From: Micromonospora sp. WMMA1947
GTDB taxonomy: Bacteria > Actinomycetota > Actinomycetes > Mycobacteriales > Micromonosporaceae
DNA: 64,000 bases
Reading direction: 5' to 3'
Assembly: GCF_027497355.1 (NCBI RefSeq)
Contig: NZ_CP114909.1
Span: 5,972,001-6,036,000, forward strand
Part shown: positions 4,550-15,439 of the stretch, in pieces
Position numbering within the stretch: the stretch's first letter is position 1
How the letters are laid out: each line of letters begins with the position of its first letter
Translations under genes and position numbers: made by a program
The notes under the pieces: model-generated
What the model saw: the letters and a program-made list of their open reading frames with translations, nothing else
What the model was told of the DNA's origin: nothing
The model's database searches: none

Positions 4550-4557
<8 letters not shown>

Positions 4558-5722
4558 TGTCGCGCCCCTCAGTCTGCTTCCGGTCGGGGCCGCCGCCCTC
4601 GATCAGTTCGGCGAAACGGTCGAAGAGGTAGTCCGCGTCGTGCGGGCCGGCCGCCGCCTCGGGGTGGTACTGGACGGTGAAGGCGGGCACGTCCACGGCC
4701 CGCAGCCCCTCGACCACGTTGTCATTGAGGCAGACGTGCGACACCTGGACACCGCCGAACTCGGTCTGGATCACCTGATCCGGCACCACCGCACCGTCCC
4801 CGGCGCCCGGCACCTGCACCGCGAAGCCGTGGTTGTGGCTCGTCACCTCGACCTTGCCGGTGGCCCGGTCGAGCACCGGCTGGTTGATGCCGCGGTGGCC
4901 GTACCCCAGCTTGTAGGTGCCGAAGCCGAGCGCCCGGCCGAGGATCTGGCTGCCGAAGCAGATGCCGAACAGCGGGATCCGCCGGGTCAGCACCTCCCGG
5001 GCCAGCGCCACCGGGCCGTCGGCGGTCGCCGGGTCGCCCGGGCCGGGCGAGAAGAAGACAGCGTCCGCGCCGGTGGCGAGGAGATCCTTGATGGTCGACC
5101 CGGCGGGGAGCACGTGGGTGGTGACGCCGCGGGCGGCGAGCCGGCGGGGCACGTTGCGCTTGATGCCCAGGTCCACCGCGGCCACCGTGAACCGGTGCTC
5201 GCCCTGCGCCTCGACGACGTACGGCTTGGCGGTGGTCACCTCGTCGGACAGGTTCGCGCCGACCATCTGCGGCGAGCGGCGTACCCGCTCCAGCAGCGCG
5301 GCCGGGTCGTCCTCGACGCTGGAGATGCCGACCCGCATCGCGCCGCGCTCACGCAGGTGCCGGGTCAGCGCCCGGGTGTCCACGCCGCTGATGCCGACCA
5401 CGCCCTCGGCGGCGAGCCGGTCCTCCAGGCCGCCGGTGGCCCGCCAGTTGGAGCTGATCCGGGCCGGGTCGCGCACCACGTACCCGGCCACCCAGATCCG
5501 GTCGGACTCGTCGTCCTCGCCGTTGACGCCGGTGTTGCCGATGTGCGGCGCGGTCTGCACCACCACCTGCCGGTGGTACGAGGGGTCGGTGAGCGTCTCC
5601 TGGTAGCCGGTCATGCCGGTGTTGAAGACCGCCTCGCCGAAGGTCTCCCCGACGCTGCCGTACGCCTCGCCGTGGAACGTGCGCCCGTCCTCGAGGACGA
5701 GAATTGCAGGCCGTCGCTTCAC
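4550..5722 (-). CDS. carA: Carbamoyl-phosphate synthase small subunit
   Basis: CarA is the glutamine amidotransferase subunit that hydrolyses glutamine and delivers ammonia to CarB. The 390 residues comprise an N-terminal CPSase domain ([15 protein letters not shown]) and a C-terminal class I GATase with the nucleophile in [17 protein letters not shown] and the His/Glu pair in VQYHPEA. The GTG start at 5722 follows a GAAAGG ribosome binding site that belongs to a repeated 50-bp linker (5731-5780). It lies downstream of pyrC and overlaps carB. Confidence 0.99.
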
Positions 5723-5730
5723 TGTGCCCG

Positions 5731-5780
5731 CCTTTCGTTCGCGACTGCGGGACTCCGCTCCGCTGCGTTCCTCGCGCTCA
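5731..5780 (-). repeat. 50-bp intercistronic linker repeat, copy 1 (pyrC/carA)
   Basis: Read on the minus strand, it begins with the TGA stop of pyrC and ends with GAAAGG, the apparent ribosome binding site of carA. It matches 14214-14263 (aroC/aroK) at 48 of 50 positions, in the same orientation. Both gene pairs are exactly 55 nt apart. Confidence 0.85.
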
Positions 5781-7055
5781 CTTAACAGCCTTTCCGTCCA
5801 GGACCGTCGGCTCGCCGCGCAGGAAGGTCGCCACGATGCGACCCGGCAGCGTCATGCGGGCGTACGGGGTGTTGCGACTGCGACTGGCCAGTTCCGCCGG
5901 TTCGATGACGCGACGGACGGCCGGGTCGACAAGGGTCAGGTTGGCCGGTACGCCGGGCGCCGGGTCGAGGCCGTGCCCGGTCAGTCCGGCGATCCGGGCC
6001 GGGGTGCGGGACATCCGCTCGGCGATCAGGTCCCAGCGGGGGCCGAACACGTCGAGCGCGATGGACAGCGCGGTCTCCAGGCCGAGCATGCCCGGCCGGG
6101 CGTACGCCCACTCGCACTCCTTGTCCTCCACGGCGTGCGGCGCGTGGTCGGTGGCGATGATGTCGATCACGCCCTCGGCCAGCGCCTCCCGCAGCGCGGC
6201 GATGTCGGCGGCGGTGCGCAACGGCGGGTTGACCTTGAAGACCGGGTCGTAGCTCTCCGCCTTCTCATCCGTGAGCAGCAGGTGGTGCGGCGTCACCTCG
6301 GCGGTGACCCGTACCCCGCGGGCCTTGGCCTGGCGCAGCACCTCGACGCTGCCGGCGGTGGAGACGTGGCAGACGTGCAGGCGGCTGCCCACGTGCTCGG
6401 CGAGCAGCACGTCCCGGGCGATGATCGCCTCCTCGGCGACGGCCGGCCAGCCGGTCAGGCCGAGGCGGGTCGACACCTCGCCCTCGTGCATCTGCGCGCC
6501 CTCGGTCAGCCGGGGCTCCTCGGCGTGCTGGGCGATCACGCCGTCGAACGCCTTGACGTACTCCAGCGCCCGGCGCATCAGCCGCGGGTCGGACACGCAG
6601 TGCCCGTCGTCGGAGAAGATCCGCACCCCGGCGGCCGAGTCGGCCATCGCGCCCAGTTCGGCCAGGCGCTCGCCGGCCAGCCCGACGGTGACCGCGCCGA
6701 TCGGCTGCACGTCGACCAGGCCGGCCTCCCGGCCGAGCCGCCAGACCTGCTCGACCACGCCCGCGGTGTCCGCGACCGGCGAGGTGTTCGCCATCGCGCA
6801 CACCGCCGTGTAGCCGCCGAGCGCCGCCGCCCGGGAACCGGACTCGACGGTCTCGGCGTCCTCCCGGCCGGGCTCGCGCAGGTGGGTGTGCAGGTCGACC
6901 AGGCCGGGCAGCGCGACCAGGCCGCTCCCGTCGATGACAGTGGCGTCGTCCGCGACGAGCCCGCGGCCCGTCTCGGCCACCACGCCGTCGCGGATGAGCA
7001 GGTCGGTCGGCTCGCCGCCGACGATGCTGACGCTTCTGATGAGGTACGCGGTCAC
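5778..7055 (-). CDS. pyrC: Dihydroorotase (type I)
   Basis: PyrC cyclises carbamoyl-aspartate to dihydroorotate, the third pyrimidine step. The 425-residue amidohydrolase has the metal-binding [10 protein letters not shown] motif near residue 58, the substrate-loop [19 protein letters not shown] and the catalytic ATDHAPH region, as expected of long type I enzymes. The GTG start at 7055 overlaps the pyrB stop (GTGA), a sign of translational coupling. Its TGA stop is the first part of a repeated intercistronic linker shared with aroC. Confidence 0.98.
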
Positions 7056-7978
7056 CGGTTGTTCCCTCCGAGCAGCAGGTAGAGCACGGCCATCCGCACG
7101 GAGACCCCGTTGGCGACCTGTTCGACGATGGTGGAGCGGGGCGAGTCGGCCACCTCGGGCGTGATCTCCATCCCCCGGTTCATCGGGCCGGGGTGCATGA
7201 CGATCGCGTGCTCGGGCAGCCGGCGCATGCGCGGCCCGTCGAGCCCGTAGCGGCGGGCGTACTCGCGGGCCGACGGGAAGTAGGAGTCACCCATCCGCTC
7301 GCGCTGCACCCGTAGCATCATCACCACGTCCACATCTGGGAGAACGGCGTCGAGGTCGTAACAGACGTCGGTGCCGGGTGCCAGAGCGGCGGCGATGTCG
7401 ACCGGGATGAGCGTGGGCGGGCCGACCAGTGTGACCTTCGCGCCGAGCGTGGACAGCAGCAGCACGTTCGAGCGGGCCACCCGGGAGTGCAGCACGTCGC
7501 CGACGATCGCCACGTGCAGGCCGTCGAGCCGGCCCAGCCGGGACCGCATCGTGTACGCGTCGAGCAGCGCCTGGGTGGGGTGCTCGTGGGTGCCGTCACC
7601 GGCGTTTACGACCGACCCGTCCACCCACTCGGCGAGCCGGTGCGGGGCGCCGGAGGCGGGGTGCCGGACGACCACCGCGTCCGCGCCCATGGCCTGGAGC
7701 GTGAGCGCGGTGTCCTTCAGGCTCTCCCCCTTGGCCACGCTGGAGCCCTTGGCGGAGAAGTTGATCACGTCGGCGCTGAGCCGCTTGGCAGCCGCCTCGA
7801 ACGAGATCCGGGTCCGGGTGGAGTCCTCGTAGAAGAGGTTGACCACGGTGCGCCCGCGCAGCGCGGGCAGCTTCTTGACCTCGCGCCCGGCCACCGTCGC
7901 CATCTCCGCGGCGGTGTCCAGGACCAGGGTGGCGGTGCCGGCGTCCAGATCGGCGCCGGAGAGCAGGTGCCGGATCAT
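7052..7978 (-). CDS. pyrB: Aspartate carbamoyltransferase catalytic subunit
   Basis: PyrB transfers the carbamoyl group to aspartate, the committed pyrimidine step. The 308 residues show the carbamoyl-phosphate loop STRTRISFE near residue 52, the HPTQALLD motif and the [13 protein letters not shown] aspartate domain motif ([11 protein letters not shown]). No regulatory pyrI gene is adjacent, as usual in actinobacteria, where PyrR controls the operon. The ATG start overlaps the pyrR stop by ATGA, and the pyrC start overlaps its own stop. Confidence 0.99.
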
Positions 7979-8559
7979 GCGGATGTACCCCCGTACAACT
8001 TGACCTCGTCCGTGCCGTCGGTCTCGGCGAGGGTGACCTTGACGTTCTCGGCCAGCGCGGTGGGGATGTTCTTGCCGACGTAGTCGGCGCGGATCGGCAG
8101 CTGGCGGTGGCCGCGGTCGACCAGGACCGCGAGCTGCACGGACGCCGGGCGGCCGACGTCGCTGAGCGCGTCCAGCGCGGCCCGCACGGTGCGGCCGGAG
8201 AACAGCACGTCGTCGACGAGGATCACCCGCTTGCCGTCGATCCCGCCGGGCGGCAGGTCGGTCGGACCGACCGCGCGGGTGGCGTGCCGGCGCAGGTCGT
8301 CGCGGTAGAGCGTGATGTCGAGCACGCCGACCGGGACGGTGACGTCCTCGAAGGTGCTGATCCGGGCCGCCAGGCGGTGCGCCAGCGGCACGCCCCGGGT
8401 GGGGATGCCCAGCAGCACGGTGTCGGCGGCGCCCTGGGTCTTCTCCAGGATCTGGTGAGCGATGCGGTCGACCACCCGCGACACGTCCGCTGCGGTGAGG
8501 ATCACCTTCACCGAGGGTTGTCGCGGCGGCGACGAGTGGGCAGCCGGTGGGTAGGCCAC
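7975..8559 (-). CDS. pyrR: PyrR bifunctional regulator / uracil phosphoribosyltransferase
   Basis: PyrR binds pyr mRNA in a uridine-nucleotide-dependent way and represses the operon; many homologues also have weak UPRTase activity. With the GTG at 8559 the product is 194 residues, close to the family length. That start follows GGAAGGAGG; the frame continues 31 codons further upstream but that stretch has no ribosome binding site and runs through the leader hairpin. The PRPP motif [17 protein letters not shown] is near residue 115. It is the first gene of the operon, and its ribosome binding site abuts a PyrR-type RNA element (8566-8603). Confidence 0.96.
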
Positions 8560-8565
8560 GGCGGA

Positions 8566-8603
8566 CCTCCTTCCCCGCCTCACGGGACGGGTCGTTAAAG
8601 GAC
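8566..8603 (-). promoter_or_regulatory. PyrR-binding leader hairpin overlapping the pyrR ribosome binding site
   Basis: On the minus strand, GTCCTTTAACGAC is followed by TCCCGTGAGGCG and then AAGGAGG. The TCCnGnGAGG core matches the known PyrR binding loop, and the flanking CCCGTC/GCGGG bases can pair. Because the loop sits immediately before the ribosome binding site, control is probably translational, as described for mycobacterial pyrR, rather than by termination. A TAACGT -10-like hexamer lies at 8656-8661. Confidence 0.8.
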
Positions 8604-8764
8604 GTCTGGTCTGCTCCGGCAGGCCCGCGCGGGGCCCAGACCGGGGCTTCACGCCACGTTACCAGCGGTCACCGGGCCACCCGCCGCCGGTCCTGACCTG
8701 CTGGTCAGCCCGGAGAAATGCGGACAAGCCACACGTGGGTGCCGGACCTCGTGGACAGCAACAC

Positions 8765-8806
8765 TTGACCACTTGTCGCAATCCCCGTACCGTCACGCTC
8801 CGTAGC
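8765..8806 (+). promoter_or_regulatory. bldD promoter with candidate BldD autoregulatory box
   Basis: TTGACC (8765-8770) and TACCGT (8788-8793) are separated by 17 bp, a good housekeeping sigma promoter. Overlapping the -10 box and the likely start point, 8792-8806 matches seven of nine defined positions of the published BldD box nTnACnCWGnGTnAn. The leader to the ATG would be about 45 nt. Confidence 0.7.
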
Positions 8807-8845
8807 GATAGCTCGGAGAACCCGAACAGCACTGGGAGTGTCCGA

Positions 8846-9334
8846 ATGCCCTCTGAATACGCCAAGTCGCTGGGCGCCCGCCTGCGCTCCATCCGCCAGC
8901 AGCAGGGCCTGTCCCTGCAGGGGGTGGAGGAGAAGTCGAACGGGCGGTGGAAGGCCGTGGTGGTCGGCTCGTACGAGCGCGGCGACCGCGCCGTCACCGT
9001 GTCCCGCCTGGCGGAGCTGGCCGACTTCTACCGCGTTCCCGTCTCGGAGCTGCTGCCCGACGGCAGCGGGGTGCGTCACGAGCCCACCAGCAAGATCGTG
9101 CTGGACCTGGAGCGGCTCTACGACGAGGCCTCCGAGGACCTCGCGTACGTGGCCCGCTACGCGCGCGCCATCCAGCAGCAGCGCGGCGACTACAACGGCC
9201 GGGTGCTCTCCATCCGCGCCGACGACCTGCGCGCCCTCGCGATCGTGTACGACGCCTCGCCGTCGGGCCTGATCGAGCGGCTGACCGAGCACGGCGTGCT
9301 GGTCGCCGACCCGCGGGCGTTCTTCGCGTCCTGA
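8846..9334 (+). CDS. bldD: BldD, c-di-GMP-dependent developmental regulator
   Basis: BldD represses sporulation genes during vegetative growth when dimerised by tetrameric c-di-GMP. The 162-residue product has an N-terminal XRE-type HTH (SLGARLRSIRQQQGLSLQGVEE, roughly 8-70) and a C-terminal effector domain. The ligand signature RXD-X8-RXXD is intact as RGD (113-115) and RADD (124-127). The ATG at 8846 gives the family N-terminus MPSEYAKSLGARL; the frame extends upstream through the promoter, so the longer reading is rejected. It diverges from the pyr operon and converges on nusB across a shared terminator. Confidence 0.97.
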   Translation: MPSEYAKSLGARLRSIRQQQGLSLQGVEEKSNGRWKAVVVGSYERGDRAVTVSRLAELADFYRVPVSELLPDGSGVRHEPTSKIVLDLERLYDEASEDLAYVARYARAIQQQRGDYNGRVLSIRADDLRALAIVYDASPSGLIERLTEHGVLVADPRAFFAS

Positions 9335-9350
9335 CACCCCGTACGACAGA

Positions 9351-9380
9351 AAGGGCCCGTGCCTACCGGCACGGGCCCTT
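9351..9380. terminator. Bidirectional terminator between bldD and nusB
   Basis: Perfect 13-bp arms AAGGGCCCGTGCC and GGCACGGGCCCTT surround a 4-nt loop. The arms begin and end in A/T, so each strand gives a GC-rich hairpin ending in Ts. The genes on either side converge. Confidence 0.85.
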
Positions 9381-9395
9381 CGTCGTCGCGGCGCG

Positions 9396-9830
9396 TCAGC
9401 GCGTGGCGTACTCGGCGATCCGGCCGAGGATGCCGTTGAGGAAGCGGGGCGAGTCGTCGGTAGACATCTGCCGGGCCAGCTCCACGGCCTCGCTGATCGC
9501 CACCGCGTCGTCGATCTCATCGACGTAGAGCAGCTCGTACACGGCGATCCGGGCCAGGTTGCGGTCGACCACGGGCATCCGCTCCAGCGTCCACCCCTCG
9601 GCGTAGCTGGCGATCGTCTCGTCGATCCGGTCGAGGTGCGCCGCCACGCCCTCGACCAGCCCGACCGCGTAGCCGAGGTGGTCGGGGCGCGGCTGCTCGA
9701 TCCGTTCCAGGTAACCGGCGAGCACCTCGACCGGCGGGCGGTCCCGCAGGTCGGCCTCGAAGAGCACGTCCAGCGCCCGCTTGCGCGCCTTGCGGCGCGC
9801 CGGCATCTGCTGCTTGGGGCCCTCGGCCAT
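9396..9830 (-). CDS. nusB: Transcription antitermination protein NusB
   Basis: NusB binds boxA RNA with S10 (NusE) in the antitermination complex used for rRNA transcription. The 144-residue all-helical protein begins with ARRKARKRALDVLFEADLRDR and carries the family segments YAVGLVEGV and RNLARIAVYELLYVDEIDDAVAISEAVELAR. The ATG start shares its A with the efp TGA stop (TGATG), implying coupled translation. It is the last gene of the aro-efp-nusB run. Confidence 0.97.
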   Translation of the reverse strand: MAEGPKQQMPARRKARKRALDVLFEADLRDRPPVEVLAGYLERIEQPRPDHLGYAVGLVEGVAAHLDRIDETIASYAEGWTLERMPVVDRNLARIAVYELLYVDEIDDAVAISEAVELARQMSTDDSPRFLNGILGRIAEYATR

Positions 9831-10387
9831 CAGGCTCGGCCGAGGTAACGGCCGTCGCGGGTGTCGACCTTGATCTTCTCACCGGTGGTGATGAACAGCG
9901 GCACCTGCACTGTGGCGCCGGTCTCGACGGTGGCCGGCTTGTTGCCGCCGGTCGACCGGTCGCCCTGCAGGCCCGGCTCGGTGTAGGTGACCTCGAGCAC
10001 GACCGAGGTCGGCAGCTCGATGTACAGCGGCACGCTCTCGTGGGTGGCGACTGTCGCCTCGGCCTCGGGGAGGAGGTAGTTGGCGGCCTCGCCGACGGTG
10101 CCGCCGGGGACGGTGATCTGGTCGAACGTCTCCAGATCCATGAAGACGTAGTCCTCGCCGTCGGCGTACAGGTACTGCATGGTGCGCTTGTCCACGGTCG
10201 CGGTCTCGACCTTGGTGCCCGCGTTGAAGGTCTTGTCGACCACCTTGCCGGACAGCACGTTCTTCAGCGTGGTGCGCACGAAGGCACCACCCTTACCGGG
10301 CTTGACGTGCTGGAACTCGACGACGGCCCACAGCTCGCCGTCCAGGTTGAGTACCAGGCCGTTCTTCAGGTCGTTGGTGGTGGCCAT
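9830..10387 (-). CDS. efp: Elongation factor P
   Basis: EF-P binds between the ribosomal P and E sites and relieves stalling at polyproline stretches. The 185-residue protein has the three OB-like domains. The domain I loop reads [10 protein letters not shown], with Lys at the position modified or left bare in different lineages, and domain III ends in [26 protein letters not shown]. This is relevant to the proteome here: the window also encodes a 1,094-residue protein full of PP and PPP motifs (21761-25045). An 86-bp gap from aroQ holds a possible -10 TAGACT. Confidence 0.98.
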
Positions 10388-10473
10388 TTCCTGCCTTGAT
10401 CATCAATTGGCGGACAGACCGTCCAAGTCTACTCGCTCTGTCGAATCGGACTCGCGCCGCGCGACGGACCGGC

Positions 10474-10914
10474 TCAGGCGCCCGCGGCGAGCCGGGCGGC
10501 CAGATGCTGCAGCGCCAGCCGGTAGCCGTCCACGCCCAGGCCGCAGATCACCCCGGTGGCCACCGCGGACACCACCGAGTGGTGCCGGAACTCCTCCCGG
10601 GCGTGGATGTTCGAGATGTGCACCTCGACCAGCGGGCCGCGCAGCATGGCGCAGGCGTCCCGCACCGCGATCGAGTAGTGCGACCAGGCGGCCGGGTTGA
10701 GCACCACCGCCGCCGCCTCGTCGGCCGCCTCGTGCAGCCAGGCGAGCATCTCGTGCTCGGCGTCGGTCTGCCGGACCACCACGTCCAGGCCCAGCTCCCG
10801 GCCGTGCCGCTCGCAGTCGGCCACGAGCTGGGCGTAGCTGGTCACCCCGTACACGTCGACCTGGCGGGTGCCGAGGCGGCCCAGGTTCGGCCCGTTGAGC
10901 ACGTACACCCTCAC
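10474..10914 (-). CDS. aroQ: 3-Dehydroquinate dehydratase, type II
   Basis: AroQ removes water from 3-dehydroquinate, the third shikimate step. The 146 residues show type II hallmarks: [14 protein letters not shown] with the catalytic-loop region at the N-terminus, [34 protein letters not shown] and [15 protein letters not shown]. The GTG start at 10914 overlaps the aroB stop as GTGA; upstream in-frame codons belong to a shadow of aroB. It lies between aroB and efp. Confidence 0.97.
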
Positions 10915-11987
10915 GAGCTGATCTCCGCGTACGCGGCGGCGAGCAGGTCGTCCGACGGCGCCTCCAGGATCGCCGGGCGGGCCAGCCCGTCGAGCACCAC
11001 GAACCGCAGCCGGCTGCCACGGGCCTTCTTGTCCACCCGCATCGCGGCGAGCAGCTCCGGCCAGGCGTCGGCCCGGTAGCCGGTGGGCAGGTCGAGCGCG
11101 GTCAGCACCCGGCGGTGCCGCTCGGCGTCGGCCGCGTCGAGGCGCCCGGCGAGCCGGGCCAGCGTGGCCGCGTACACCAGGCCGACCGCGACCGCGTGGC
11201 CGTGCCGCCAGCGGTACCCCTCCACCTTCTCGATCGCGTGCGCCAGCGTGTGCCCGTAGTTGAGCACCTCGCGTACCCCGGATTCGCGCAGGTCCCCGCC
11301 GACCACGTCGGCCTTCACGCGGACCGCGCGCTCGACCAGTTCCCGCAGCACCGGCCCGGCCGGGTCGAGCGCGGCGGCCGGGTCCCGCTCGACCAGGTCG
11401 AGGATGACCGGGTCGGCGATGAACCCGCACTTGACCACCTCGGCCATCCCGGCGGCCAGGTCGGCCGGGGGCAGGCTGTCCAGCGTCGCCAGGTCGGCCA
11501 GCACGCCGGCCGGCGGGTGGAACGCGCCGACCAGGTTCTTGCCGGCGGCGGTGTTGATGCCGGTCTTGCCGCCCACGGCGGCGTCGACCATGCCGAGCAG
11601 CGACGTGGCGACCGGCACCCAGCGCACGCCGCGCAGCCAGGTGGCCGCGACGAAGCCGGCCAGGTCGGTGACCGCGCCGCCGCCCACGCCGACCACCGCG
11701 TCGGTACGGGTGAACCCGGCGTCGCCGAGCCGGTCCCAGCAGGCCGCCGCCACGTCGACGTGTTTGCCCGCCTCGGCGTCCGGCACCTCGATCAGCAGCG
11801 GCGTCACGCCGCCCTCGCGGACCGCGTCGGCGAGCCGGTCGGCGAGCGCCTTGAGCGGCGGCGCGTGCAGGAAGGCCACCCGCTCGGCGCCCGGCAGCAG
11901 CACCGGCGGCGGGTCCAGCAGGTCACGTCCCACCAGCACGTCGTACGGCCGCTCGCCGCCGACCGGGATCCGGGTCACCTCGTCCAT
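10911..11987 (-). CDS. aroB: 3-Dehydroquinate synthase
   Basis: AroB converts DAHP to 3-dehydroquinate using NAD and a divalent metal. The 358 residues contain [23 protein letters not shown] near 95, the [21 protein letters not shown] segment, the metal-site EVVKCGFI and [12 protein letters not shown]. The ATG at 11987 is preceded by TAGGCT 7 nt upstream and no clear ribosome binding site, so the mRNA is probably leaderless. It is cut off from aroK by two plus-strand genes, which fits the need for its own promoter. Confidence 0.97.
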
Positions 11988-11994
11988 CGCGGGC

Positions 11995-12000
11995 AGCCTA
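11995..12000 (-). promoter_or_regulatory. Leaderless -10 box for aroB
   Basis: TAGGCT on the minus strand ends 7 nt before the aroB ATG, with no Shine-Dalgarno sequence between them. No -35 hexamer is recognisable. Confidence 0.55.
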
Positions 12001-12079
12001 GTCCAGCGCGCCGCCCTCGCGCGGCCGTTGTCCACTGGCTGGGTGTTTGCCCGGCCGCACCGCGGGTAGGGCGGCCGGA

Positions 12080-12622
12080 ATGAGCGAGACGACGGCACAG
12101 GAGACCCGACAAGAGTCCGCGACGAGCATCCGGCTGCCCGCCACGATCCTCGGTGTCGGGCTGGGCGGCTTCGTCGACGGCATCGTCCTGCACCAGGTGC
12201 TCCAGTGGCACCACCTGCTCAGCAGCACCGGCAGTGACCGGGTCGGCATCCGCGAGTACCCGGTGGACACCGTGCCCGGGTTGCAGATGAACACGCTCTG
12301 GGACGGCCTGTTCCACGTGGTCACCTGGGTGGCGGTGCTGACCGGCCTGGCCCTGCTCTACTCCCGGGTGACCGGTTCCCGGGGCCGGCTGTGGCGCTCG
12401 CCGATGCTGTGGGGCTGGGCGCTGATCGGCTGGGGCCTGTTCAACCTGGTCGAGGGCATCATCGACCACCACCTGCTCGGCATCCACCACGTGCGCAGCG
12501 GCCCGAACCAGCTCTGGTGGGACCTCGGGTTCCTCGCCCTCGGCGTGGTGCTGATCGCCGTCGGCTGGGCGATCCAGCGCCGGGCCAAGGGCGTCGACCT
12601 CTGCGCGCCGGAGCGCCGGTGA
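12080..12622 (+). CDS. DUF2243 family multi-pass membrane protein
   Basis: The function is not established. The 180-residue protein starts [11 protein letters not shown] and has about four membrane segments (near 24-45, 70-92, 105-125 and 145-165). His-rich motifs flank them: [19 protein letters not shown] and [14 protein letters not shown]. The family occurs beside CtaG-like copper or oxidase-assembly genes, and here the stop overlaps the ctaG start as GTGA, so the two are almost certainly co-translated. The start was chosen at 12080 because the 11 upstream in-frame codons are arginine-glycine rich and overlap the divergent aroB promoter region. Confidence 0.85.
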
Positions 12623-13407
12623 CGCTCGCCCACGCCGGGCACGCCGACGGCGGCTTCCCGGCGACCGCGCTGGTCCCGGCGGCGCTGTTCTGGGCGTACC
12701 TGGCCGCCGCGCTGCGGCTGCGCGACCCGGGCGGGCCGGGCTGGCCGCACGCCCGGACGGCGAGCTTCGGGCTGGGCGCGCTGCTGCTCGCGGCGGGGCT
12801 GCTGTGGCCCGCCGGGGACTTCGTCGGGCACATGTGGCAGCACCTGCTGATCGGCATGCTCGCGCCGCTCGCGCTGGTGCTCGGCGCCCCGGTCACGCTG
12901 CTGCTGCGCACGCTGGACCGGCGTACCGGCCGGGCCCTGGTCCACCTGCTGCGGCATCCCGTCGCGCGGGTGTTCGGCCACCCGGTGACCGGCCTGCTGC
13001 TCACCGCGGGCGGGCTGTGGCTGCTCTACCTCACCCCGCTGTACCGGGCCACCCTGGACAACCCGGCCCTGCACACGCTGGTGAACCTGCACTTCCTGCT
13101 CAGCGGCTGCCTGTTCGCCTGGTCGATCGCCGGTCCCGATCCGGGACCGCACCGCCCGCGCGTACCGGTGCGGCTCGTGGTGATCGGGTTCGGGGTGGCC
13201 GCGCACGCCACGATCGCCCAGTTGCTCTATGCCGGGCTGTTCGTCGACGTGCCGGCCACCGCCGCCGAGCTGCGGGCCGGGGCCACGCTCATGTACTACC
13301 TGGGTGACCTGGCCGAGATCGCGCTGGCGCTCGCGCTGCTGGCCACCTGGCGACCGGAACCGGCCCGGCGCCGCCGCGCGGCCGGGACCGTCGCGGCCAA
13401 CGCCTGA
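12619..13407 (+). CDS. ctaG: CtaG-type cytochrome c oxidase assembly protein
   Basis: This is a caa3-type CtaG family member, a membrane protein linked to oxidase or copper-centre assembly. The 262 residues have about seven membrane helices and the family segments HMWQHLLIGMLAPLALVLGAPVTLLLR (near 75-100), HTLVNLHFLLSGCLFAW and MYYLGDLAEIALALAL. The GTG start at 12619 overlaps the DUF2243 stop. The pair runs opposite to the aro genes and is followed by a tandem of hairpins, suggesting insertion into the shikimate operon. Substrate and metal specificity cannot be read from sequence. Confidence 0.85.
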   Translation: MTLAHAGHADGGFPATALVPAALFWAYLAAALRLRDPGGPGWPHARTASFGLGALLLAAGLLWPAGDFVGHMWQHLLIGMLAPLALVLGAPVTLLLRTLDRRTGRALVHLLRHPVARVFGHPVTGLLLTAGGLWLLYLTPLYRATLDNPALHTLVNLHFLLSGCLFAWSIAGPDPGPHRPRVPVRLVVIGFGVAAHATIAQLLYAGLFVDVPATAAELRAGATLMYYLGDLAEIALALALLATWRPEPARRRRAAGTVAANA

Positions 13408-13434
13408 CCAGCGCGCCTTCCCACCCGCCCATGG

Positions 13435-13660
13435 CGTTCCACCCGCCGGCGTCATCCACGCCGAGTGGAACACCACGGGTGCCACAACCCTCGGGAGACA
13501 CCCACACCGTTCCACCCACCGACGTCATGCGCGCCGACTGGAACGCCACGGGTGCCACAACACCCCGAAGACACCCACCGCGTTCCACCCACCCACGTCA
13601 TCCACGCCGAGTGGAACACCACGGGTGCCACAACACCCCGAAGACACCCACCGCGTTCCA
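13435..13660. repeat. Tandem hairpin repeat, 73-bp period, about three copies
   Basis: Hairpin units open with TGGAAC at 13466, 13539 and 13612 and close with GTTCCA at 13514, 13587 and 13660, exactly 73 bp apart. A further GTTCCA ends at 13441, in register. Each unit holds CACGGGTGCC on one side and GACACCC on the other, an imperfect inverted repeat. The 24-bp interhairpin segment (CGTCATCCACGCCGAG type) also repeats. A solitary relative is at 27824-27872. It fills the gap between the converging ctaG and aroK genes. Confidence 0.9.
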
Positions 13661-13695
13661 CGGAGGGAGCCCGGAGCCGGCGGAGCGGGGCGGGC

Positions 13696-14205
13696 TCAGG
13701 GCTTGAGCAGGGCGGCGATCTCCGCGGCCAGATCCTCCGGCGTACGCCCGTCGGTGACCACCGTCGCGGTCGCCACCTCGGCGTAGAGCGGGCGGCGCTG
13801 ATCCATCAGGTGCTTGAGCGTGGCGCGCGGGTTCAGCGCGAGCAGCGGACGGCCCGCGCCCAAGCCAACCCGCTTGACCGCGTCTGGCAGCTCCACCGAC
13901 AGGTGCACGACGGTGTGGCCGATCAGCGCGGCCCGGTTCTCCTCGGCCAGGACCGCGCCGCCGCCGAGCGCGAGCACGCCCGCGTGCGACGCGAGCGCCG
14001 CCGCCACGGCGGCCCGTTCGAGGGTACGGAAGTGCTCCTCGCCCTCGTCCACGAAGATCTCCGGGATGGGCTTGCCGGCGAGGTTCTCGATGTCGGCGTC
14101 GGTGTCCCGGAAGTCGACGCCGAGCGCCTCGGCGAGCGCCGTACCGACAGTGGTCTTGCCGGACCCGGGCGCACCGACCAGCACGCAGACCGGCCGGGTG
14201 CTCAT
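13696..14205 (-). CDS. aroK: Shikimate kinase
   Basis: AroK phosphorylates shikimate with ATP. The 169-residue P-loop kinase has [11 protein letters not shown] near residue 11, the shikimate-binding DTDADIE and the LGGGAVL loop, then [24 protein letters not shown] in the lid region. The ATG at 14205 is used because AAAGG lies 8-10 nt upstream; a GTG nine bases earlier would sit on that site. It follows aroC through the 50-bp linker repeat. Confidence 0.96.
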
Positions 14206-14213
14206 CGTTGCCA

Positions 14214-14263
14214 CCTTTCGTTCGCGACTGCGGGACTCCGCTGCGCTGCCTTCCTCGCGCTCA
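14214..14263 (-). repeat. 50-bp intercistronic linker repeat, copy 2 (aroC/aroK)
   Basis: On the minus strand it starts with the TGA stop of aroC and ends in GAAAGG, the aroK ribosome binding site. It matches the pyrC/carA copy at 5731-5780 at 48 of 50 bases, in the same orientation and with the same 55-nt gene spacing. Confidence 0.85.
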
Positions 14264-15439
14264 CCGAACCACCAGGCTGTCGAGGTAGCCCGTCAGGTTG
14301 CGGCGCATTTCGGCGACCGAGTCGCCGCCGAACTTCTCCACCGCCGCCTCGGCCAGCACCAGCGCGACCATCGCCTCGGCCACCACCGCAGCGGCCGGGA
14401 CCGCGCACACGTCGGAGCGCTGGTTGATAGCGGTGGCCGGCTCGCCTGTGGTCACGTCGATCGTGGCGAGAGCCCGGTTCAGCGACGAGATCGGCTTCAT
14501 GGCCGCCTTCACCCGCAGCGGCTCACCGGTGGTGATGCCGCCCTCCAGGCCACCGGCCCGGTCGGTGATCCGCCGCACGCCGGTCGCGGTGGGCACGATC
14601 TCGTCGTGCGCCTCCGAGCCACGCGAGCGGGCCTGCTGCCAGCCGTCGCCAATCTCCACACCCTTGATCGCCTGGATCGACATGAGCGCGGTCGCGAGGC
14701 GGGCGTCGAGCTTGCGGTCCCACTGGACGTGGCTGCCCAGGCCCGGCGGCACCCCGTACGCGAGCACCTCGACCACGCCCCCGAGCGTGTCGGCGGCCTT
14801 CTTCGCGGCGTCGACCTCGGCGACCATCCGGGCGCTGGCCTCGGCGTCGAGGCAGCGCAGCGGGTCGGCGTCGATGCGCGCGGCGTCCTCCGGTGTGGGC
14901 CGCAGGCCCGGCTTGACCGCCACCGGGCCCAGCTCGACCACGTGGGAGACGATCTCGACGCCGAGCGCCTGGCGGACGAGTGCCTTGGCGACGGTGCCCA
15001 CCGCGACCCGGGCGGCGGTCTCCCGGGCGCTGGCACGCTCCAGGATCGGCCGGGCGTCGGTGTGCCCGTACTTCTGCATGCCGGCCAGGTCGGCATGGCC
15101 CGGCCGGGGCCGGGTCAGCGGCGCGTTGCGGGCCTGGCTCGCCAGTTCCTCCGGGTCGACCGGGTCGGCGGCCATCACGGTGCGCCACTTGGGCCACTCG
15201 GAGTTGCCGACCCGGATCGCGACCGGGCTGCCGAGCGTCACCCCGTGCCGGAGCCCACCGATGATCTCGACCTCGTCCTGCTCGAACGACATCCGGGCGC
15301 CCCGGCCGTAGCCGAGCCGGCGCCGGGCCAGCTCGCCGGAGATCTCCGCCGTGGTCACCTCGATGCCGGCGGGTACGCCCTCCAGCATCGCGACGAGGGC
15401 GGGTCCGTGCGATTCACCTGCAGTCAGCCAGCGCAACAC
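14261..15439 (-). CDS. aroC: Chorismate synthase
   Basis: AroC converts EPSP to chorismate with reduced FMN, the branch point for aromatic amino acids. At 392 residues it matches bacterial monofunctional enzymes. Signatures are [24 protein letters not shown] at the N-terminus, [37 protein letters not shown] near 110-150 and the C-terminal [23 protein letters not shown]. The GTG at 15439 gives the conserved [10 protein letters not shown] start; the same frame runs far upstream, antisense-free but through aroE sequence, and is rejected. Confidence 0.97.

Follow-up and report, generated by a model that had tools for sequence, protein, structure and literature searches.

The window analysed here, a 64,000-nucleotide stretch of the genome of Micromonospora sp. 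WMMA1947 (contig NZ_CP114909.1, positions 5,972,001 to 6,036,000), carries two copies of a short intercistronic element, one in the pyrC-carA operon and one in the aroC-aroK operon. All of the window features described below lie on the minus strand and are numbered from the first letter of the window. Profile matches identified the genes at the first site as pyrC, encoding dihydroorotase (5778..7055), and carA, encoding the small subunit of carbamoyl-phosphate synthase (4550..5722), which has a GTG start. The second copy lies between aroC, encoding chorismate synthase (14261..15439, with the start at 15439 inferred), and aroK, encoding shikimate kinase (13696..14205). The best profile matches of aroK were to shikimate kinase, at scores below the cut-offs of those models, and its ATG start was taken from relatives; the list of open reading frames places a GTG start 9 nt earlier.

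Direct comparison of 5731-5780 with 14214-14263 gave 48 identical bases of 50, as the initial annotation had reported, or 49 of 51 when the stretches were extended to 5781 and 14264. The sequence is GTGAGCGCGAGGAACGCAGCGGAGCGGAGTCCCGCAGTCGCGAACGAAAGG at 5781-5731, with a copy differing at two positions at 14264-14214. No such match, at up to three mismatches, was found in 100 dinucleotide shuffles, in agreement with the earlier view that chance likeness could be dismissed. Both copies begin with GTGA, the TGA of which is the stop codon of pyrC (5780-5778) or aroC (14263-14261), and in both the shared stretch ends with GAAAGG (5731..5736 and 14214..14219), a Shine-Dalgarno-like motif, assigned from its sequence and from energies for such right ends as a class, that lies 8 nt upstream of the carA GTG and the aroK ATG, respectively. 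The gap from stop to start is 55 nt in each pair (5777-5723 and 14260-14206), also as reported. The two spacers are not the same throughout, as had been claimed: the shared stretch takes in, besides the stop, 47 of the 55 nt between the genes, and the 8 nt that adjoin the start are different (CGGGCACA and TGGCAACG).

The central feature, missed in the initial annotation, is a frame-preserved mini-open reading frame (mini-ORF) that bridges both genes. Each window copy holds a 20-codon frame that stays open from a GTG on the upstream stop to a TGA on the downstream start (5719..5781 and 14202..14264), where the overlap is GTGA for carA (5722-5719) and ATGA for aroK (14205-14202). Measured from GTGA to the next NTGA, the unit is 59 bp long (5723..5781 and 14206..14264). 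A covariance model scored the two units at 76.3 bits (E 2.3e-18) and 68.4 bits (E 3e-16) and found no other strong copy in the window, three further matches having E values of 0.19 to 2.1. The 55-nt gap occurs in both pairs because the 59-bp unit is common; the exact spacing was dropped as a special feature, as unit lengths of 53, 56, 60, 62 and others occur.

A dispersed family at stop/start overlaps

Judging from the comparisons below, the two window copies belong to a large, real and apparently mobile family of units of about 59 bases. The genome of the strain itself (6.31 Mb, one contig) held 20 copies by a relaxed pattern; with the covariance model it gave 30 matches at E < 1e-3 and 32 at E ≤ 1. 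Among 354 Micromonosporaceae genomes a strict core pattern was found in 190, comprising 157 of 160 Micromonospora genomes and 33 of 194 others, with up to 57 copies per Micromonospora genome, and the reversed pattern used as a control was absent from all 354. The Micromonospora genomes without the strict pattern (G149, G180 and G205) all had derived copies at nuoD. At least 80 loci were found among the matches listed, mostly in Micromonospora with a few in Plantactinospora, Verrucosispora, Phytohabitans and an unclassified Micromonosporaceae strain. In a class-wide sample the near-identical pattern occurred in 3 of 296 genomes, all three of them Micromonospora. Model searches detected more distant relatives of the element, with the same GTGA-to-GTGA layout, in G075 and G083, and no match at E ≤ 0.01 in five other genomes of the family. 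Among 25 genomes from other families of the same order, searched with model R1 (150 candidates scored per genome), only two weak matches appeared (E 0.0036 and 0.0078), in G356 and G556, and these were set aside by eye as they did not have the element layout. Among the papers listed by literature searches, none described an element of this kind in Micromonosporaceae, and three stretches of its sequence, each of 14 to 16 bases, had no occurrence in the literature searched.

The position of the copies relative to genes was stereotyped. Arrays, which hold 1 to 6 units in the recount by array, were taken from the loci among the matches listed, with the loci of four chosen sites pooled with the rest; 350-400 bp of flank was needed and copies near locus ends were left out. 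Of 177 arrays (234 copies), 130 had an upstream coding frame that ended on the TGA of the element, 146 had a downstream frame that started 4-31 nt beyond the core, at an NTGA in frame, and 106 had both. Duplicates had been dropped copy by copy in this count, which could split arrays of identical units, and a recount that dropped them array-wise gave 130, 145 and 106 of 176. By comparison, 2768 random GTGA sites in named loci coincided with an upstream stop in 138 cases, with a downstream start in 137 (5% each) and with both in 12. The initial annotation had called for a search of the genome and its relatives, tabulated against stop and start codons, and had named random placement or the existence of only two copies as outcomes contrary to its proposal; clearly, neither was found. 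With one array per downstream-protein cluster, a grouping by protein likeness that may join paralogues, the upstream stop coincided in 56 of 80. In the genome of the strain, a downstream frame was flagged at the end of 21 of 30 model matches, or 18 when L342, L343 and L347, which have no NTGA end, are discounted. The flanking genes were varied and included nuoC/nuoD, aminotransferase/oxidoreductase, nuclease/helicase and globin-reductase/DivIVA-like pairs, among others.

Empty sites and the ends of the element

At several junctions related genomes had a bare gene overlap in place of the element. This was the case at carA in G158, at aroK in G151 and G158, and at nuoD in G151, G158, G147 and G208 (GTGA or ATGA). 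At the helicase gene of L016, compared in 24 of 30 genomes (G075, G002, G083, G003, G110 and G132 being left out), G158 had a bare ATGA. At the carA junction, G158 reads GCAGTCAA-GTGAAG and WMMA1947 reads GCTGTTAA-GTGAGCGC...CACA-GTGAAG; at the aroK junction, G158 reads ATCAA-GTGAGCACC, G151 reads ATCAA-ATGAGCACC and WMMA1947 reads GTTCG-GTGAGCGC...CAACG-ATGAGCACC.

On a tree of 31 genomes, constructed from the coding DNA of three genes, the distribution of the element was patchy. WMMA1947 was filled at all three sites, and of its neighbours G151 had one filled site and G158 had none; overall, the sites were filled in 7, 3 and 12 of the 31 genomes, with one further genome unclear at nuoD. The subtypes on this tree were assigned by regular expressions, so that decayed copies may read as empty. 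At nuoD, WMMA1947, G152 and G145 had subtype B, and G144 had subtype A2, as did a clade of small genomes. Moreover, six downstream-protein clusters with at least three arrays mixed core lengths. On these sequences, the pattern of subtypes needs repeated gain at one junction, or replacement.

The initial annotation had suggested either a portable element or gene conversion. The first part is borne out by the many copies in the genome and genus, the precise empty sites and the differing subtypes at one junction; the second, taken alone, does not account for insertions at points where unrelated genes simply overlap. An exchange of spacers between operons by gene conversion or recombination, through short homology and with no transposition, would fit the patchy distribution and the near-identity of many tandem units within an array. 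It is nevertheless very unlikely to be the explanation, since the likeness of the window copies stops at the left GTGA and just past the Shine-Dalgarno, the flanking genes are unrelated and the bare overlaps hold no element sequence to convert, although conversion could contribute to one copy replacing another. The same observations bear on the idea that the element is a selected, non-mobile regulatory spacer, in which an intercistronic ribosome-binding site was optimised by convergence or retained by vertical descent. Such a spacer would be expected to have the strong Shine-Dalgarno and good spacing that were found, but the near-identity reaches far beyond the Shine-Dalgarno, the element is missing from the same junction in the closest relatives of the set and one junction holds different subtypes, so that this explanation is barely credible.

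The two ends of the element were different. The left end was GTGA in 174 of 177 arrays, whereas the right end was GTGA in 114, ATGA in 31 and TTGA in 1, and was not found in 31. Ordinary 4-nt overlaps from the window and the named loci, identified by the same procedure, began with A in 67 cases, G in 60 and T in 5. Left and right ends differed with a Fisher p of 1.9e-9, and right ends differed from this background with p 8e-8, values uncorrected for kinship. On the simplest reading, the element would bring the left GTGA along and the right NTGA would be the old start. Consistent with this reading, the element stands before GTAATG at carA in G151, G145 and G150, and G144 has a bare GTAATG. However, an array in the genome of the strain (C1:3730496-3730673, L347-L349), which precedes a beta-eliminating-lyase gene, consists of three 58-bp units that are joined by an 8-nt overlap, GTGGCTGA, and end with GTGGGTGA. 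Each mini-ORF ends in the next overlap and register is kept, but here the flanking overlap looks duplicated, at odds with the left-GTGA reading.

Unit length, reading frame and ribosome binding

The single units (n = 112) were 53-86 bp long and usually 56, 59 or 62 bp: 59 bp in 59 units, 56 bp in 22, 62 bp in 13, 60 bp in 9, 53 and 65 bp in 2 each, and 54, 57, 63, 68 and 86 bp in one each. For these units, all with a start, the length was 2 mod 3 in 100, 0 mod 3 in 12 and 1 mod 3 in none, and the mini-ORF ended exactly on the right NTGA in 95. When arrays were included, 164, 34 and 5 of 203 units were 2, 0 and 1 mod 3, respectively. The array-wise recount gave 99 and 12 of 111 single units, and 163, 34 and 5 of 202 units in all, of which 158 of the 163 with length 2 mod 3 had no stop before the next NTGA. 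When each downstream-protein cluster, again with paralogues possibly joined, contributed a single array, 52 of 62 were at 2 mod 3 and 10 at 0.

The core and tail of the unit vary separately and only their sum is kept. Cores of 1 mod 3 were combined with tails of 1 mod 3 (56 of 58), cores of 0 with tails of 2 (42 of 52) and cores of 2 with tails of 0 (2 of 2). Thus, cores of 40 or 43 mostly had tails of 16, 19 or 22, a core of 45 had tails of 11, 14 or 17 (15 or 18 in ten), a core of 50 had a tail of 18 and a core of 56 a tail of 30. There were 19 distinct core/tail pairs, 15 at 2 mod 3, four at 0 and none at 1; with an expectation of one third, P was 6e-5 for at least 15 at 2 mod 3 and 5e-4 for none at 1. 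Only a length of 2 mod 3 ends the mini-ORF on the next 4-nt overlap, while 0 would fuse it, in frame, to the second gene and 1 would make ribosomes enter that gene out of frame. A conserved peptide was considered and rejected. Subtypes differ in the frame in which they read the conserved CGCAGTCGCGAAC stretch, and therefore it is openness and register, not a peptide, that are kept.

The anti-Shine-Dalgarno energy over the 18 nt before the start had a median of -8.7 kcal/mol for 138 distinct right ends, compared with -7.35 for 132 ordinary 4-nt overlaps (p 2e-5); shuffling the right ends gave -5.8. The most common spacing was 8 nt (51), followed by 7 nt (27), and 15 of the 138 had no Shine-Dalgarno-like 4-mer. 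With its TGA serving as the upstream stop, the linker does supply both a stop codon and a ribosome binding site, as the initial annotation had proposed. The left ends, with a median of -7.85, showed no difference from ordinary overlaps (p 0.64); the old Shine-Dalgarno would now serve the mini-ORF.

Repetitive extragenic palindromes (REPs) are tied to a Y1 transposase, and the element might be a structural repeat of the REP/BIME type, spread by a Y1 (RAYT/IS200-like) enzyme and functioning as an mRNA hairpin or protein-binding site, with the frame incidental. The units are short, occur in many copies and form tandem arrays; a similar hairpin was seen in four of five folded copies, and one variant has a paired GATCCG/CGGATC base. 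One purine-pyrimidine pair covaries in several loop backgrounds (G-C in 160, A-T in 23 and others in 4 of 187 units), with both sides changed in 14 of 67 aligned rows, the alignment being 67 of 72 references with five long units omitted and the tested structure being drawn from these same sequences. Four of the other nine pairs were invariant and only one had a two-sided change, in one row; the total of 2 of 10 pairs with any two-sided change was reached by 49 of 500 shuffles. The folding of five copies was no better than that of shuffles (z -1.02, -0.48, 0.24, 0.58 and -1.66) and Rfam gave no match at the gathering score in five element loci. A stable RNA structure was accordingly kept only as a minor possibility, on account of the covarying pair, and the hairpin may have a role. 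The Y1_Tnp domain (PF01797) had no match in the genome of the strain, on which ground mobilisation by Y1/RAYT was rejected, and it was present in 45 and without a match in 115 of the 160 Micromonospora genomes, compared with 157 of 160 for the element. As orientation and register to the genes are fixed and length is kept mod 3, a REP/BIME-type repeat is improbable.

Several other spacers of related design were observed. A distant subfamily (GTGAAGCGCGAGGAGTGGAGCGAAGCGGAGCCCCGCAAGCGCGAACG...) is represented in G075, from another genus, by an array at C2:3201326-3201674 (L359), with five to six units that are nearly identical and 60 bp long, a length of 0 mod 3. In the genome of the strain (G000), a shortened 38-bp copy (C1:1608388-1608429, L351) precedes a 451-codon gene; it has 21 nt less than 59 bp, a multiple of three, and its mini-ORF is still open by eye. 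A variant subfamily, GTGATCCGAG...CAGTCCGGATCGGAGG, has a basal stem that is paired; three of its units stand in tandem at carA of G147 (L219:1314-1495), and a similar sequence occurs at the same gene in L224 and L225. In a clade of small genomes, which we take to be Salinispora-like, the pyrC-carA spacer is 62 bp long, with quite different sequence and the same layout in 8 of 8 loci checked (L209, L210, L211, L212, L213, L215, L222 and L226; carA of G292, G297, G205, G165, G210, G180, G214 and G149): a GTG at the pyrC stop, a 21-codon open frame and a TGA overlapping the carA start. It might derive from the present family by extensive decay, or represent a second family that is built alike.

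Proposed mechanism and related systems

The preferred reading, with a probability of about 0.8, is that the family is a small non-autonomous mobile element that carries a translation-coupling mini-ORF and a Shine-Dalgarno for the next gene. The element would insert in one orientation where an upstream stop overlaps a downstream start ([A/G]TGA), recreating the overlap at both of its ends with a short open frame between them. Ribosomes terminating the first gene at the TGA of the element would restart on the overlapping GTG, assisted by the old Shine-Dalgarno in the end of that gene, translate the mini-ORF of about 20 codons and stop on the TGA that overlaps the start of the second gene, where the Shine-Dalgarno of the element, 7-8 nt upstream, would promote restart. 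Insertion should thus cost the operon little. Copy number, location, empty sites, frame preservation and the Shine-Dalgarno can be read directly from the sequences; from these we infer that the mini-ORF is translated and couples the two genes, and the element probably spread by transposition.

Several observations weigh against this interpretation: 1) 47 of 177 arrays had no upstream coding frame ending at the element, some of them being array remnants and others lying before genes with no overlapping upstream gene, 2) of the 30 model matches in the genome of the strain, a set with tandem and degenerate copies, only 14 had a coinciding upstream frame, 3) the 12 of 112 single units of 0 mod 3 include 11 mini-ORFs that run in frame into the second gene, and 6 of the 112 mini-ORFs stop early, 4) all 5 of the 203 units at 1 mod 3 are in arrays, 5) the five copies folded no better than shuffles, as described above, 6) gene calls came from codon-position GC and stop codons in place of annotation, and many copies have common ancestry, 7) loss or recombination could partly account for presence and absence and 8) no mover was found, Y1_Tnp being the one candidate searched for.

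An unlikely variant is that the element represents a distinct class of selfish elements with the translation signal itself as target. They would enter stop/start overlaps in a fixed orientation by means of unrecognised machinery and leave the overlap of the site at both ends, be it the 4-nt GTGA/ATGA, the 1-nt TAATG or even the 8-nt GTGGCTGA. The mover would perhaps act on mRNA or use host translation-linked processes, and each copy would be nearly invisible to its operon.

What moves the element is the question that the family raises. The family offers natural allele pairs, with and without the element, in housekeeping operons (pyrC-carA, aroC-aroK and nuoC-nuoD), together with tandem copy series. 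Termination-reinitiation coupling can readily be tested with it, and the element might serve as a portable linker in bicistronic constructs.

Like REP/REPIN-RAYT systems, the element is a short, dispersed, hairpin-capable and non-autonomous repeat; unlike them, it enters gene overlaps and had no Y1 match in the genome of the strain. The enterobacterial RU sequences, described in excerpts of PMC2759123 as small and mobile and as carrying ORFs, resemble it, as far as that account extends, in being small mobile repeats able to contribute reading frames; their length of 103-168 bp and MITE-like nature set them apart.

The mycobacterial interspersed repetitive units (MIRUs) share more of its features. 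According to portions of a 2025 review (PMC12548453, citing Supply 1997), MIRUs are apparently mobile, insert at start codons with minimal effect on the next gene and have an internal ORF coupled to that gene with a -4 nt spacing. Excerpts of a second source (PMC2734929) give a length of 40-100 bp, 41 locations in one genome and variable copy numbers. Set against these partial descriptions, the Micromonospora element likewise has an internal ORF with a -4 nt overlap on the downstream gene (95 of 112 single units, by layout), lies at start codons or overlaps in operons, appears to be mobile, with dispersed copies and empty sites, and has units of 53-86 bp, mostly 56-62 bp, in arrays of 1 to 6. 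It differs in belonging to another bacterial family and in its typical unit of 56, 59 or 62 bp; empty sites, core/tail frame compensation, several loop subtypes and a Shine-Dalgarno module were all seen in the Micromonospora element. By analogy, the element would work like a MIRU, with which it was compared by description only, and it is not filed as one. Small mobile DNA inside operons, with a frame-preserved mini-ORF, is thereby found outside mycobacteria on the scale of a genus, and the little-studied MIRU idea would be extended to a system present in more than 150 species (157 of 160 Micromonospora genomes, one per species).

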